From positions 1-53,463 of the forward strand of contig NZ_JADYTX010000010.1 of NCBI RefSeq assembly GCF_021531475.1: DNA of 53,463 bases, written 5' to 3'. A model generated the notes under the pieces. It made no database searches, was not told the origin of the DNA, and saw only the letters and a program-made list of their open reading frames with translations. Source of the DNA: Fusobacterium perfoetens (GTDB lineage: Bacteria; Fusobacteriota; Fusobacteriia; Fusobacteriales; Fusobacteriaceae). The translations under genes and the position numbers were made by a program. Shown here piece by piece: positions 35,465 to 40,483 of the stretch (its first letter is position 1; each line of letters begins with the position of its first letter).

Positions 35465-37360
35465 TTAAAAAATTAAAATCTCCACATCTTGAGCTAATTT
35501 TTCTAATTTTTGATTTAACTCTCTTGAAATATTATGAGATAATTCCTCCACAAAACTATTTCCATTTTTTTCAAGCTCATCAAATATAGCTTTATTTAGT
35601 TTTTCACGAGTTTTATCAGATAAAAACATATCTTTTCTCACAAGTTTTCTAAGAAGAACTGGCACAGATTTTTTAATAAACAGGTGTTTACTTCTATTAA
35701 ATCCCACCATTCCAGCTAAAATTCCAATTATCGCTCCACCTAAAAATCCAAGAGGACCTGTTGCTATAAGAGCTGTACCACTTCCTCCACAAAGCATTCC
35801 AATCAAAACTCCAACTATAAGAGAAACTATTCCATTTATTATATTTTCCCCTTGAAGATTTTTTATAGAAAAATCTATATTGTGAAAATCTGTTTTTATA
35901 TCCACTGCCAAAAGATTCATCTCCTCTTTTGGTATCATATATCTATCACAAATCTCATCAATAGGTACTTGCAATTTATCACAAAGTTTTACTGACCAAC
36001 CGATTATTGATTCTTCCAAAAGAGATTTTATCTCACCTGGCTCTAGTATCTCCCTTACCTTTTGAGAAATAATTCCATTCATCTCCTCAATTGTATCAAT
36101 CTGACCTTTTTTCCAAAGGGAGATATTTGGCAAAATACTTGTATTTATAACAAACTCAGTTATTTTTTCAACCATTGGATATACAAGAGAATAAATATCC
36201 TCTTTTACATTTTTTTCTACCACTCCACTATTTATAAAAGTTTTTACTTCCTCTCTAAACTCTCTCAATCTTTCGTCTATAATTCCAGAATATGCCAAAC
36301 CTTTTCCGATAGAAAACTCTGGCTCTTCAGAATTAACTATTATTGCATTAGGAAATGAAAATTTACATTGCTCCCTAAAAAATTTCATTCTCGATGCTCC
36401 ACCAGTCAGTATCAAAAGTTTTGGTAGATTATCCTTTGTAACTTTTGCTGACTCATAAAGGGAGTATTGTATCCCCTCTACAAAAGATTTTCCATTTAAT
36501 TCTGGTATAGGTTTATTTATAATCTTTCTTATAATCTCCTCGTTGGCTTTTATAGAAAGGTTTTGTATTCCGTCATAATAAAGAGATACTACCTCTTCAT
36601 AAAAGGAATTTTTATATAAATCCTCATTTGTAAAATATTTTTCTTTTACCTTTCTAGCCACTAGCTCTGCATAACAACGCCAACCATAACTCTCATCAAA
36701 GGTTTCTTTTATTTTTTCTTTATCAATACTTTGAGATATTGCCTCTTCCAAAAGATATTTATCTATCAAACCACTTCCAAGATTGTTATTTCCAAAAACT
36801 CCAATCCCTGTTTCTTTTCCATTTACTATATAGGCAAAATCCAAAGTCGACGAACCAATATCCACAACTAACACACTTTCTTTCAGAAGTTCTGGATTGA
36901 CCCTTATATTTTTTGCCTCACGAGCATAGAGAAAAGCCGCCCTTGACTCTGATATAACTCTTACATTCGGAACTCCAGCTTTTATCAAAAGATTTCTATA
37001 TCTTTTTCTCATCTCTAAATCCCAACCAGCTGGACAACCTACTGTTATTTGAATATCATTCCCAAGCTCTAACTCAGAAAGTTTTTGTACAACACCTTTT
37101 GCAAAGAGAACTATATCATTTTCTGAAATCTCTGATTTTTCTGAGAAACGACTTTTAAATCTAACTCTTAAGGAATTTTTATCCCCCAAAGATATTGCTT
37201 GTTCTCCGATTAAAATCTCATCTCCGTCTAAAGCCACAGCAGAGATAAAACTTTTTTTGTCCCCTAATGATAAAATTATAGGCTCTATATCTTTACTAGC
37301 TGATGATATTTCAGCAACTGTACTTTCTCCGTCACCTAAATCAAATCCTAAGTATCTCAT
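35465..37360 (-). CDS. Hsp70-like ATPase with C-terminal membrane segment
   Basis: A 631-residue actin/Hsp70-fold protein. The nucleotide-binding motifs are FDLGDGESTVAE (phosphate 1, residues 5-16), LVVDIGSSTLDFAYI (phosphate 2, near 170) and LILTGGASRMKFF (adenosine, near 320). The usual Hsp70 substrate-binding domain is missing. Instead residues about 507-552 form a Gly-rich hydrophobic stretch (SLIVGVLIGML... GGAIIGILAGMV) able to span the membrane once or twice, followed by a charged helical tail of about 80 residues. It follows the small membrane protein by 14 bases on the same strand. It is no DnaK/HscA/StbA I know. Function unknown; a membrane-anchored ATPase acting with its neighbour is inferred. 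Confidence 0.85.
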   Translation of the reverse strand: MRYLGFDLGDGESTVAEISSASKDIEPIILSLGDKKSFISAVALDGDEILIGEQAISLGDKNSLRVRFKSRFSEKSEISENDIVLFAKGVVQKLSELELGNDIQITVGCPAGWDLEMRKRYRNLLIKAGVPNVRVISESRAAFLYAREAKNIRVNPELLKESVLVVDIGSSTLDFAYIVNGKETGIGVFGNNNLGSGLIDKYLLEEAISQSIDKEKIKETFDESYGWRCYAELVARKVKEKYFTNEDLYKNSFYEEVVSLYYDGIQNLSIKANEEIIRKIINKPIPELNGKSFVEGIQYSLYESAKVTKDNLPKLLILTGGASRMKFFREQCKFSFPNAIIVNSEEPEFSIGKGLAYSGIIDERLREFREEVKTFINSGVVEKNVKEDIYSLVYPMVEKITEFVINTSILPNISLWKKGQIDTIEEMNGIISQKVREILEPGEIKSLLEESIIGWSVKLCDKLQVPIDEICDRYMIPKEEMNLLAVDIKTDFHNIDFSIKNLQGENIINGIVSLIVGVLIGMLCGGSGTALIATGPLGFLGGAIIGILAGMVGFNRSKHLFIKKSVPVLLRKLVRKDMFLSDKTREKLNKAIFDELEKNGNSFVEELSHNISRELNQKLEKLAQDVEILIF

Positions 37361-37374
37361 TTTTTACCTCCACT

Positions 37375-38229
37375 TTAAATTTTTTTAGTAGCCACTCCTC
37401 TTGCCAATACTTTTTTGCTATCCCTATCAACAAAAGCTGATTTTATAGTCATTGAAGAGGTTTTACTTGGGAAAACATCAAAATACTTTTCTGTTTCATC
37501 TGAATAATCTAATTTTTCTATATTATTAGAAAGTAATACATTTGCTGTTTCCCTATTAAGAGTTGATATTATCTGTTTATTATCAGTTTTTTCTATCTCA
37601 TCTATTTTTTGGAAAATCTCTAAGATATTTTTATCAATATTCATATCGTTTTTATTTTCCAAACCATTTAAAATCACAAACTCATCTATATATCTGTCCA
37701 TTGATTCCATAGTTCTATCCATAAAAACTAAAAGTTTTTCTACATCAATATTTATCTCTGTTTTTTGGATTTTATCGATTGTTTTTGTTTTTTCTCTATA
37801 TTTTTTTAGGATAAGTAAAACTATTATAGCCTCACAGATAAATCCAACAATAGCTCCTCCAACATTTGTATAAAGTTTATTTTTTAAACCTTGTGAAAAA
37901 CTAAACCAAATTGAATAAACTAAAATACAGTGAATTACTGCTAAAAATACACTATTTCCTTTTTCTTTGTAAGTAATTCCACTTTCTTCTGACCAGATTT
38001 TCGCCTCTCCTAAAGTATTATAAATATTAAAATTTTCTTTTACCATAGAAAACATAATCCCTATCTGTTGACGAAGTTTTGAATCCCTCTCTTCTGACAT
38101 TGTAGTATGTTGAATAGTTTCTATTTTCTCTAAAATAATATTTTTTATATCTTGAATAGTATTTTCTTTTGCAAGGATAGTTTTTCTAGTATCCTCTCTA
38201 ATATCAAGCCATTTATCTTTTATTTTCAA
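37375..38229 (-). CDS. Two-helix membrane protein, partner of the Hsp70-like ATPase
   Basis: A 284-residue protein I do not recognise. An N-terminal charged helical region (about 1-90) is followed by two membrane helices (about 93-111 and 122-143, the second with a Gly-Gly start), then a mostly helical cytoplasmic region (about 144-240) and a beta-like end. It begins with TTG 38229, preceded by GGAGGTG at 6 bases; no ATG is close. It is the first gene of a two-gene unit with the Hsp70-like ATPase. The upstream gap is taken up by a palindromic element. Confidence 0.75.
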   Translation of the reverse strand: MKIKDKWLDIREDTRKTILAKENTIQDIKNIILEKIETIQHTTMSEERDSKLRQQIGIMFSMVKENFNIYNTLGEAKIWSEESGITYKEKGNSVFLAVIHCILVYSIWFSFSQGLKNKLYTNVGGAIVGFICEAIIVLLILKKYREKTKTIDKIQKTEINIDVEKLLVFMDRTMESMDRYIDEFVILNGLENKNDMNIDKNILEIFQKIDEIEKTDNKQIISTLNRETANVLLSNNIEKLDYSDETEKYFDVFPSKTSSMTIKSAFVDRDSKKVLARGVATKKI

Positions 38230-38286
38230 TTTAACACCTCCATATTTTATTTGACGAAAAATCTAGCTAAAAAGATATTAAAATAA

Positions 38287-38495
38287 GCTGTTGCAACTTT
38301 AAGAAATATAAGATTAAAAATTACTACAGATTACGAAAAATTGATTTATTTAAAGCTCATCTCACTAAAATCACAAAACTCACTTCGTTCAAACAGTTGT
38401 GATTTTTAGCGTTCAATGTCGCTTTATAAATCTAATTTTTCTCCATAATTTCCGTAATTTTTAATCTATATTCTTTTTATAAAAAATGCAACAGC
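38287..38495. repeat. 209-base imperfect palindromic element
   Basis: Nine-base terminal inverted repeats GCTGTTGCA (38287-38295) and TGCAACAGC (38487-38495). The inside is also an imperfect inverted repeat (AGATTAAAAATTAC... pairing with GTAATTTTTAATCT), with a central hairpin TAAAATCACAA (38366-38376) and TTGTGATTTTTA (38397-38408). No coding capacity. It looks like a MITE or large palindromic unit and fills the gap of about 280 bases between two minus-strand genes. It may serve as their terminator. Confidence 0.75.
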
Positions 38496-38507
38496 CTATT
38501 GTTATTT

Positions 38508-39938
38508 TTAATTATTATTTTCCATTTTTTTGTTTACTTTTTTTCTCTTATGAAAACCTAAATCTGCTGGATTTATACTTCCATTTATATAAAGTATCTC
38601 TCCACCATTTTCTTCAAATTCCTTTCTCAATAAAACTACTTTATCAATTAATTCCTTTTCCTCAAAAGAAATTTTAGAAGATATTTTTTCTCCCTTGCTC
38701 CAATTATTAATCACACCTAAATTATCTCCTGCAATTTTTTTATATTTGTTATTTTCTTTAGATATTAAAAGTGCTAGATAAAGTCCAAAAAGTTCCCCAT
38801 ACATAATATTATTAATCTTTCCTAAATTATAATTTCCATACCCATTCAAAGAATTTTTATACTCAGATAATTTTTCTATAATTGGATTTCCCATATAATC
38901 ACTTACACAGACTTCTGCTCCTATTCCTCTACCTGTTCCTACATCAAAAAATATTGTATCCTCTTTTAAAAGATTTTTCATATCAATTATATAGTTTTGT
39001 TCCATATTTCTTAACCATCTATCTGCTTCATTAACAGTATCAAATATTCTTGTTATATTAGCTCTATCTTTAGTAAAATTTTTTTGTATTTCCAAATCAA
39101 AAACAATTAAACTTTTTAATTCTTCTACCAAAAAAATAGCATAACATATTCTTCTTTCAGTTTTACACTGTTCAAGCCATTCAAAAGCATCTTTTTCATT
39201 TATAAAACCTTTGAAAACTCCCTTTTCATCATTTATAGCAATATTTACTTTTTCAAAAAAATCAGTTATAAAACTTTCTCTATTCTCTGGAAAATATACT
39301 GCATAATGTTTTTTCTTTAATTCTTTAGGAATTTTTTTAGGATTGATGTCCTTTTCCTTTTCTGCCACTATTTCCAACCATCTTTTTGCCTCTTCCTCTG
39401 TGACAAATTTTCTGCAAAGATATGAACTTTTATAAAGCATAGAATTTACTTCCTCTGGGGCAGTTAATATTTTTTTCTCTTTTGTATCTTTGAAAAAAAT
39501 TGCATAATATTTTTTAGGTTTTGCTGAAATATTATTGACTGAAGAACTACTTTTACTTTCATTAACAATAACTAATCTATCTTTTTTTATATTTTCTAAC
39601 CACTCTAGCCCTTCTTCTTCAGAAAAGAATTTTTTACAAAAAGATGTCTTTTTATAAATAGTTTTTGTTACTTCTTGTGGGTCAGTTAATATTATCCCCT
39701 CTTTTTCTTTTTTTAAATAAACAGCATAATAGATTTTCTTTTTTTCTGGAAGTTTTATCTCTCCATTTTTAAGTTTTTCTATCCATTCAAGTGCTTTTTC
39801 CTTAGTTTCAAATTTTTCTGTTAAATTATATACCCCTTTTCTATGACTATCAGCCTCTATATAATTATCAACTATTAGATATTCTTTCGTCAAAGGAAAA
39901 AATATAGCATAATAAATTTCTAAAGTATTTTCTTCCAT
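38508..39938 (-). CDS. RNase H-fold protein with five viroplasmin-type repeats
   Basis: A 476-residue protein of unusual build. Five repeats begin with a [K/I]xYA[I/V]xF/YL-like strand and end in a W(I/L)E/R helix: about 8-56, 69-117, 143-191, 210-256 and 263-311. They match the caulimovirus viroplasmin / RNase H1 N-terminal hybrid-binding domain, usually found once. The C-terminal domain (about 327-463) has an RNase H fold with the acidic set Asp332 (FFDVGTGRG), Glu382 (GELFGLYLAL), Asp405 (AGDNLGVINNW) and Asp459 (NPADLGFHK), so activity on RNA/DNA hybrids is plausible. It stands alone between smpB and the palindromic element. A TGGTATAAT extended -10 element lies upstream. Confidence 0.82.
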   Translation of the reverse strand: MEENTLEIYYAIFFPLTKEYLIVDNYIEADSHRKGVYNLTEKFETKEKALEWIEKLKNGEIKLPEKKKIYYAVYLKKEKEGIILTDPQEVTKTIYKKTSFCKKFFSEEEGLEWLENIKKDRLVIVNESKSSSSVNNISAKPKKYYAIFFKDTKEKKILTAPEEVNSMLYKSSYLCRKFVTEEEAKRWLEIVAEKEKDINPKKIPKELKKKHYAVYFPENRESFITDFFEKVNIAINDEKGVFKGFINEKDAFEWLEQCKTERRICYAIFLVEELKSLIVFDLEIQKNFTKDRANITRIFDTVNEADRWLRNMEQNYIIDMKNLLKEDTIFFDVGTGRGIGAEVCVSDYMGNPIIEKLSEYKNSLNGYGNYNLGKINNIMYGELFGLYLALLISKENNKYKKIAGDNLGVINNWSKGEKISSKISFEEKELIDKVVLLRKEFEENGGEILYINGSINPADLGFHKRKKVNKKMENNN

Positions 39939-40004
39939 AATATTTTTTCCCCCTTTGATATTTAAAACTTTTACAATATTATACCATATATTTAAAAAAA
40001 TTTT

Positions 40005-40034
40005 AGGGGTTACTGCAAAACTGCAACAACCCCT
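40005..40034 (-). terminator. Terminator after smpB
   Basis: Arms AGGGGTT (40005-40011) and AACCCCT (40028-40034), with TGCA/TGCA pairs inside. On the minus strand AAAATTTTTTT follows. Confidence 0.7.
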
Positions 40035-40039
40035 ATTTT

Positions 40040-40483
40040 TTAATATCTTTCTTTCATTGCTCTTTCTATATCTCTCTTTTGGTCTTTTTTCGCTATACTT
40101 TCTCTTTTGTCATAAGTTTTCTTACCACGACCAAGAGCAATATCAACTTTTACATATCCCTTTGACAAATGAACATTTAAAGGAACGATAGTATATCCTT
40201 TTTGGCTCACTTTTTCGTGAAGTTTTCTTATCTCTTTTCTATGGAGTAAAAGTTTTCTTACTCTTTTTTCTTCAGGATTATATACACTTCCAAACTCCCA
40301 AGGAACGACGGACATTCCCATTATATACACTTCATCTTTTATAATTCTTACAAAAGATTCTTTTATACTTACTTTCCCAGCTTTTATAGATTTTACTTCA
40401 CTACCTACAAGCTCAATCCCAGCCTCTATTTTATCCTCTATAAAATAATCAAAGTAAGCTTTTTTATTATTTGCTAAAATCAT
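40040..40483 (-). CDS. smpB: SsrA-binding protein
   Basis: A 147-residue partner of tmRNA that brings it to stalled ribosomes. The OB-fold core AYFDYFIEDKIEAGIELVGSEVKSIKAG and the basic tail ending DKRESIAKKDQKRDIERAMK are typical. It overlaps rnr by 4 bases, the classic rnr-smpB pair. RNase R degrades the tagged message, so the two act together in ribosome rescue. The tmRNA gene is not in this window. Confidence 0.97.
   Translation of the reverse strand: MILANNKKAYFDYFIEDKIEAGIELVGSEVKSIKAGKVSIKESFVRIIKDEVYIMGMSVVPWEFGSVYNPEEKRVRKLLLHRKEIRKLHEKVSQKGYTIVPLNVHLSKGYVKVDIALGRGKKTYDKRESIAKKDQKRDIERAMKERY

Follow-up and report, generated by a model that had tools for sequence, protein, structure and literature searches.

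Our analysis confirms that a single gene of Fusobacterium perfoetens encodes five domains of the viroplasmin or hybrid-binding (HBD) type joined to an RNase HI domain. Judged from sequence, the most likely identity of the product is an RNase HI paralogue that is mobile and has been neofunctionalised. The gene lies at 38508-39938 on the minus strand of the DNA analysed here (the window, 53,463 nucleotides), where it forms one open frame with an ATG start and an RBS-like stretch at 39936-39956 (Table 1). The folds of the protein have been kept and the residues that grip hybrids are largely gone, so its job has probably changed, and not toward exceptionally tight binding. The reading we put forward, tentatively, is that of a horizontally acquired paralogue from a distinct, long-branch subfamily, in which the HBD was amplified to five copies that would form a low-affinity tether for an altered nuclease.

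Table 1. Features of the five-repeat gene and its surroundings in the window
Feature	Position	Strand	Evidence or remark
Five-HBD RNase H protein, 476 aa (P0001)	38508..39938	minus	ORF with start signals; orthologue in G079
HBD-type repeat 1, residues 7-63	39750..39920	minus	18.4 bits to canonical HBD profile; predicted strand-strand-helix-strand-helix
HBD-type repeat 2, residues 67-126	39561..39740	minus	26.5 bits; predicted strand-strand-helix-strand-helix
HBD-type repeat 3, residues 142-200	39339..39515	minus	30.9 bits; model fits 3bsu at Z 6.0
HBD-type repeat 4, residues 209-262	39153..39314	minus	26.9 bits; predicted strand-strand-helix-strand-helix
HBD-type repeat 5, residues 263-322	38973..39152	minus	15.1 bits; predicted strand-strand-helix-strand-helix
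RNase HI domain, residues 325-464	38547..38966	minus	Aligned to 56 canonical homologues; fold matches RNases HI
Extended -10 promoter-like element TGGTATAAT, 5' of the five-repeat gene	39978..39986	minus	Consensus match only
Terminator-like stem-loop 3' of smpB, between smpB and the RNase H gene	40004..40035	minus	
smpB, upstream neighbour at the insertion point	40040..40483	minus	Kept in all genus members
284-aa gene, directly after smpB in sister G003	37375..38229	minus	
Palindromic, MITE-like interspersed repeat that touches the five-repeat gene at its 3' end	38262..38514	none	Inverted arms

Pfam and NCBIfam recognised neither domain, returning no Cauli_VI and no RNase_H match for the five-repeat protein, and the claim of five repeats therefore needed other tests; phmmer likewise found no match to the protein in the PDB. 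A profile of canonical fusobacterial HBDs, drawn from members that themselves match PF01693, matched all five repeats in full register at 15.1-30.9 bits. Each repeat scored above all of its own shuffles (1000 per repeat, the best reaching 6.8 to 14.7 bits), and the whole protein scored 71 bits, with an E value of 1.6e-22 in a search of 58 sequences. The five repeats of the orthologue in G079, a genome from a different genus of the same family, behaved in the same way (22.0 bits for its repeat 5). Membership of the HBD/viroplasmin family (Cauli_VI, PF01693) is thus supported by the canonical-profile route and not by the Pfam model, and the profile search proposed in the initial annotation came out negative with the library models and positive with the fusobacterial profile.

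For the whole protein AlphaFold2 returned the order E-E-H-E-H five times and then an RNase H fold, in a model built on a three-sequence alignment with a mean pLDDT of 66 and a pTM of 0.40. Modelled alone on an alignment of the other repeats and two phage HBDs, repeat 3 reached a pLDDT of 82. Its superposition on 3bsu, the human HBD, has a Z of 6.0 and an rmsd of 2.0 Å and takes in 47 of the 48 residues, the next match scoring Z 3.2. Foldseek returned nothing significant for repeat 3, and 3bsu ranked first only in a second look with VIA-align. The beta-beta-alpha-beta-alpha fold of 3bsu and 1qhk is therefore supported by superposition for repeat 3 and by the predicted order of elements for the other four. 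The five divergent HBD-type repeats and the RNase H domain read in the initial annotation, which suggested structure prediction as a check, accordingly hold up.

The C-terminal domain superposes on RNases HI with a Z of about 10 and is 46-51% identical to canonical fusobacterial RNase H domains; the protein terminates 12 residues beyond it. Four acidic residues had been picked out in the initial annotation, and D332, E382, D405 and D459 indeed align with columns that are invariant in 56 canonical homologues. Also invariant in these homologues is the NN of the TNN motif preceding the catalytic Glu. The TNN/TNQ substrate-contact motif is absent from both five-repeat proteins, which have N377-I378-M379 (window) and N-V-T (G079) in its place. 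Both have also lost the Asp of SGD-x-NPAD, where Ser or Gly stands instead (S454 in the window). In an engineered Bacillus halodurans RNase H variant with a changed N105/N106 pair, activity was greatly reduced or lost (PMC3526281); aligned through the common TNN motif, I378 and M379 would occupy those two positions.

The repeats depart from functional HBDs at the positions that contact hybrids. The equivalents of human W43 and C46 are present in all 74 HBDs that we collected by HMM from the 56 canonical proteins and are missing from all ten repeats of the window protein and its G079 orthologue. Alignment and the predicted model place Y, P, P, F and L at the putative Trp43 position of repeats 1-5 in the window and Y, P, S, L and L in G079. 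The F58 equivalent is aromatic in one repeat of ten, and a basic residue stands at the K59 position in nine and at the K60 position in seven, so the full contact set (W43, F58, K59, K60) is not found in the repeats. Kept in all ten are the structural positions: a Tyr in the first strand, an Ile in the second, a Phe in the third and a Trp in the last helix. W43, F58, K59 and K60 define hybrid binding, not membership of the fold. Net charge averages about zero in the repeats as against about +2.4 in canonical HBDs, for stretches of slightly different length. W43A, or K59A/K60A, abolishes R-loop labelling by an artificial three-HBD array (PMC10639055), and an enzyme carrying W43A/K59A/K60A/D210N serves as a non-binding control (PMC6868509). 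We infer that the canonical stacking contact of Trp43 has been lost and that mainly the fold and some K59/K60 basic residues have been kept.

These departures bear on the suggestion, made in the initial annotation, of very tight or multi-point binding of R-loops or of retroelement or phage hybrids. Five HBD folds and the DEDD residues could make a high-affinity hybrid binder with an active RNase H, clearing long R-loops or such hybrids by avidity, all the more so as repeats 2 and 3 retain basic K59/K60 positions and an engineered triple HBD binds R-loops well (PMC10639055). We nevertheless consider this improbable, because the contact Trp whose replacement alone silences that triple HBD is missing from every repeat, the repeats are near neutral and the substrate-contact Asn pair has gone. 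As to the proposed targets, the ORFs of the window show no sign of a reverse transcriptase or any further retroelement gene, and the phage homologues are of the ordinary one-HBD form.

Loss of nucleic-acid contacts in both the HBDs and the catalytic domain could also befit a protein-interaction scaffold or decoy, with proteins as the ligands of the HBD folds and an RNase H domain of little or no activity. There is precedent in the HBD-type domain of ANKLE2, which is needed for the interaction with PP2A and showed no hybrid binding (PMC13179284), and human RNase H1 is reported to bind P32 via its HBD. However, all four catalytic acids remain and no part of the protein is better conserved than the catalytic domain (74% identical between the two five-repeat proteins), which would be unexpected in a dead enzyme, and we regard a scaffold as unlikely.

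Comparison of the window protein with the G079 orthologue, to which it is 55% identical over its whole length, helps to separate change from decay. By rough Nei-Gojobori estimates, dN is 0.17 against a dS of 0.92 in the RNase H domain (dN/dS about 0.19) and 0.32 against 0.93 for the whole protein. The repeats evolve faster than the catalytic domain, with dN below dS in every one, and by these estimates the pair is under purifying selection. A formerly mobile gene losing its function, with degenerate repeats, would account for the faster change in the repeats, for the presence of the gene in only 2 of 98 genomes and for an in-frame TAG within repeat 4 of the G079 copy. Against such decay, the window copy is intact with start signals, and this one stop is the sole interruption of the G079 frame and may therefore be recent or a sequencing error. 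Since both proteins share the same departures and dN is below dS, functional change under selection is the better account, and decaying cargo seems to us quite unlikely.

In the model that we prefer, the N-terminal HBD of the fusobacterial HBD-RNase HI family would have been amplified to five, and the accessory paralogue so formed would have arrived on mobile DNA to live beside the housekeeping copy. With the Trp43 contact lost, each HBD would bind a nucleic-acid backbone weakly, or another partner, and the five jointly would form a low-affinity multivalent tether. This tether would bring an RNase H-fold nuclease, its acidic centre intact and its substrate handling altered, with an activity that is changed and perhaps reduced, to a target other than ordinary R-loops, such as a replication intermediate of a mobile element. 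Housekeeping hybrid removal would be left to the canonical copy. It is also conceivable, if somewhat unlikely, that the mobile-borne array reads a non-hybrid ligand (another nucleic acid, or a host or phage protein) and directs the altered nuclease in element maintenance or in conflict with other elements. A defence-system reading was rejected, as PADLOC gives nothing for the RNase H proteins.

Several lines of evidence support horizontal transfer. In sister genome G003 a 285-aa gene and an Hsp70-like gene come immediately after smpB; in the window the RNase H gene stands between smpB and this pair, and the stretch at this point is about 1.7 kb longer. The remaining five sisters have different genes 3' of smpB. 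In G079 the five-repeat gene sits on an 18.6-kb contig with a MobA/MobL relaxase, a ParA-type ATPase, Fic, HipA and transposases, an incomplete contig with the look of a plasmid or some mobilizable element. Between the five-repeat proteins the RNase H domains are 74% identical, closer than the canonical copies in the same genomes (56%). Together these observations suggest that the five-repeat gene was acquired horizontally and is apparently moving between genera. The case for mobility comprises one insertion and one incomplete contig, and gene loss in the sister genomes is a less probable alternative to the former. GC, GC3 and codon use gave no clear sign of foreign origin. In a midpoint-rooted tree of 58 RNase H domains, the five-repeat proteins pair with a support of 100/100 on a branch of 1.32, outside both the canonical and the phage sequences. 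They are thus an old divergent line, and did not arise by recent copying of the gene that the host already had.

The RNase H family is present in 92 of 98 Fusobacteriota genomes. Canonical proteins carry one HBD in 38 cases and two in 18 of the 56; the Pfam HBD model never found more than two per genome among the 98. The five-repeat form occurs in the window's host and, as the same architecture in one further genome, in G079, each of which also has a canonical copy. That of the host is a two-HBD gene adjoining upp and a gene that encodes a ywaF-like membrane protein, and the neighbours are similar in the other genomes inspected. Searching the phylum with a profile of the two arrays turned up no other array; the weak matches of this profile in G052, G093 and G094 were to a radical-SAM/HemN-like protein and DeoR-type regulators and were rejected as HBD arrays. 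Pattern-seeded scans of 84,980 prokaryote genomes and IMG/VR returned no further five-repeat member, but such scans miss divergent DNA and did not return even G079, so this absence is weak evidence. No HBD-RNase HI was found in G008, G021, G038 and G097, or in the low-completeness G082 and G091, a set that includes both surveyed species of one genus (g3). In G077 the canonical gene seems to be divided in two (G077:C1:2293022-2293617), with the HBD match in a 69-aa frame and the RNase H match in a 156-aa frame.

How does the five-repeat protein compare with described systems? The canonical fusobacterial HBD-RNase HI, exemplified by the upp-rnh-ywaF-like locus (G000:C9:48205-49026), similarly has its HBDs directly before RNase HI, the DEDD residues and a C-terminal NPADLGFH motif, but it has one or two HBDs with the Trp43 and Cys46 equivalents, and its TNN and SGD motifs are intact. 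The order of an N-terminal HBD and a C-terminal RNase HI is shared with RNase H1 of human, Drosophila, S. cerevisiae and B. halodurans. The yeast and Drosophila enzymes have two HBDs, and in the literature consulted eukaryotic and bacterial RNases H1 have at most two, in contrast to five here; the human enzyme further differs in having the hybrid contacts, at least in its main HBD. A tandem array is also found in RHINO, an engineered R-loop sensor of three human HBDs, which unlike the window protein is artificial, has intact HBDs and lacks a catalytic domain, and whose W43A form stops labelling R-loops (PMC10639055). RNase LS/RnlA-type HEPN toxins resemble the window protein in being encoded on accessory DNA and in joining a viroplasmin domain to an RNase H fold (PMC3710099). 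Pfam, NCBIfam and PADLOC gave no HEPN match in the five-repeat protein, and in the ORF list no small unassigned gene that might encode a partner like the RnlB antitoxin is evident beside it. The initial annotation knew of no described protein with five copies, and we found none in the open-access papers that we searched. With one- and two-HBD RNases H1 and an engineered three-HBD sensor known, the natural five-HBD form is a variant, its copy number having been surveyed in Fusobacteriota. The use of HBDs as R-loop sensors assumes that a domain with this fold binds hybrids; a five-copy protein that has the fold without the contacts, and is under selection, offers a system for testing other ligands of the HBD fold and a test case for an accessory RNase HI role on mobile DNA.

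Repeat 1 of both five-repeat proteins matches phrog_2978, a phage family of unknown function (E 5e-11 and 8e-6; window match 39705-39869, residues 24-74), and has a below-cut-off match to Pfam Phage_g100; the phage proteins may carry a related domain. The weak matches to Phage_g100 (PF23772), DUF7793 and phrog_2978 on the second halves of repeats were considered as a sign of phage origin and set aside: tblastn with repeats 1-2 retrieved no phage match even at E 10, and we therefore claim no such origin.

Several features of the surroundings are recorded here. On the G079 contig (C44; L051 7868-12386), genes for AAA-ATPase-like proteins (PF09820) lie on both sides of the five-repeat gene, one of them with PDDEXK_9, and the HipA, Fic and ParA genes lie upstream. 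In the window, two genes at 35465-38229, one of membrane type (284 aa) and the other a divergent Hsp70/ParM-like gene whose product ends in a glycine-rich C-terminus, make up a pair that is retained 3' of smpB in G003 only, and the Hsp70-like protein has a weak PADLOC match to LeoBC. The palindromic, MITE-like repeat that touches the five-repeat gene is about 250 bp long and has the ends GGCTGTTGCA...TGCAACAGC. It has 56 matches in its own genome, counting fragments and reverse-orientation self-matches; near-full copies number about 17 more, at 87-97% identity, and there are many fragments.
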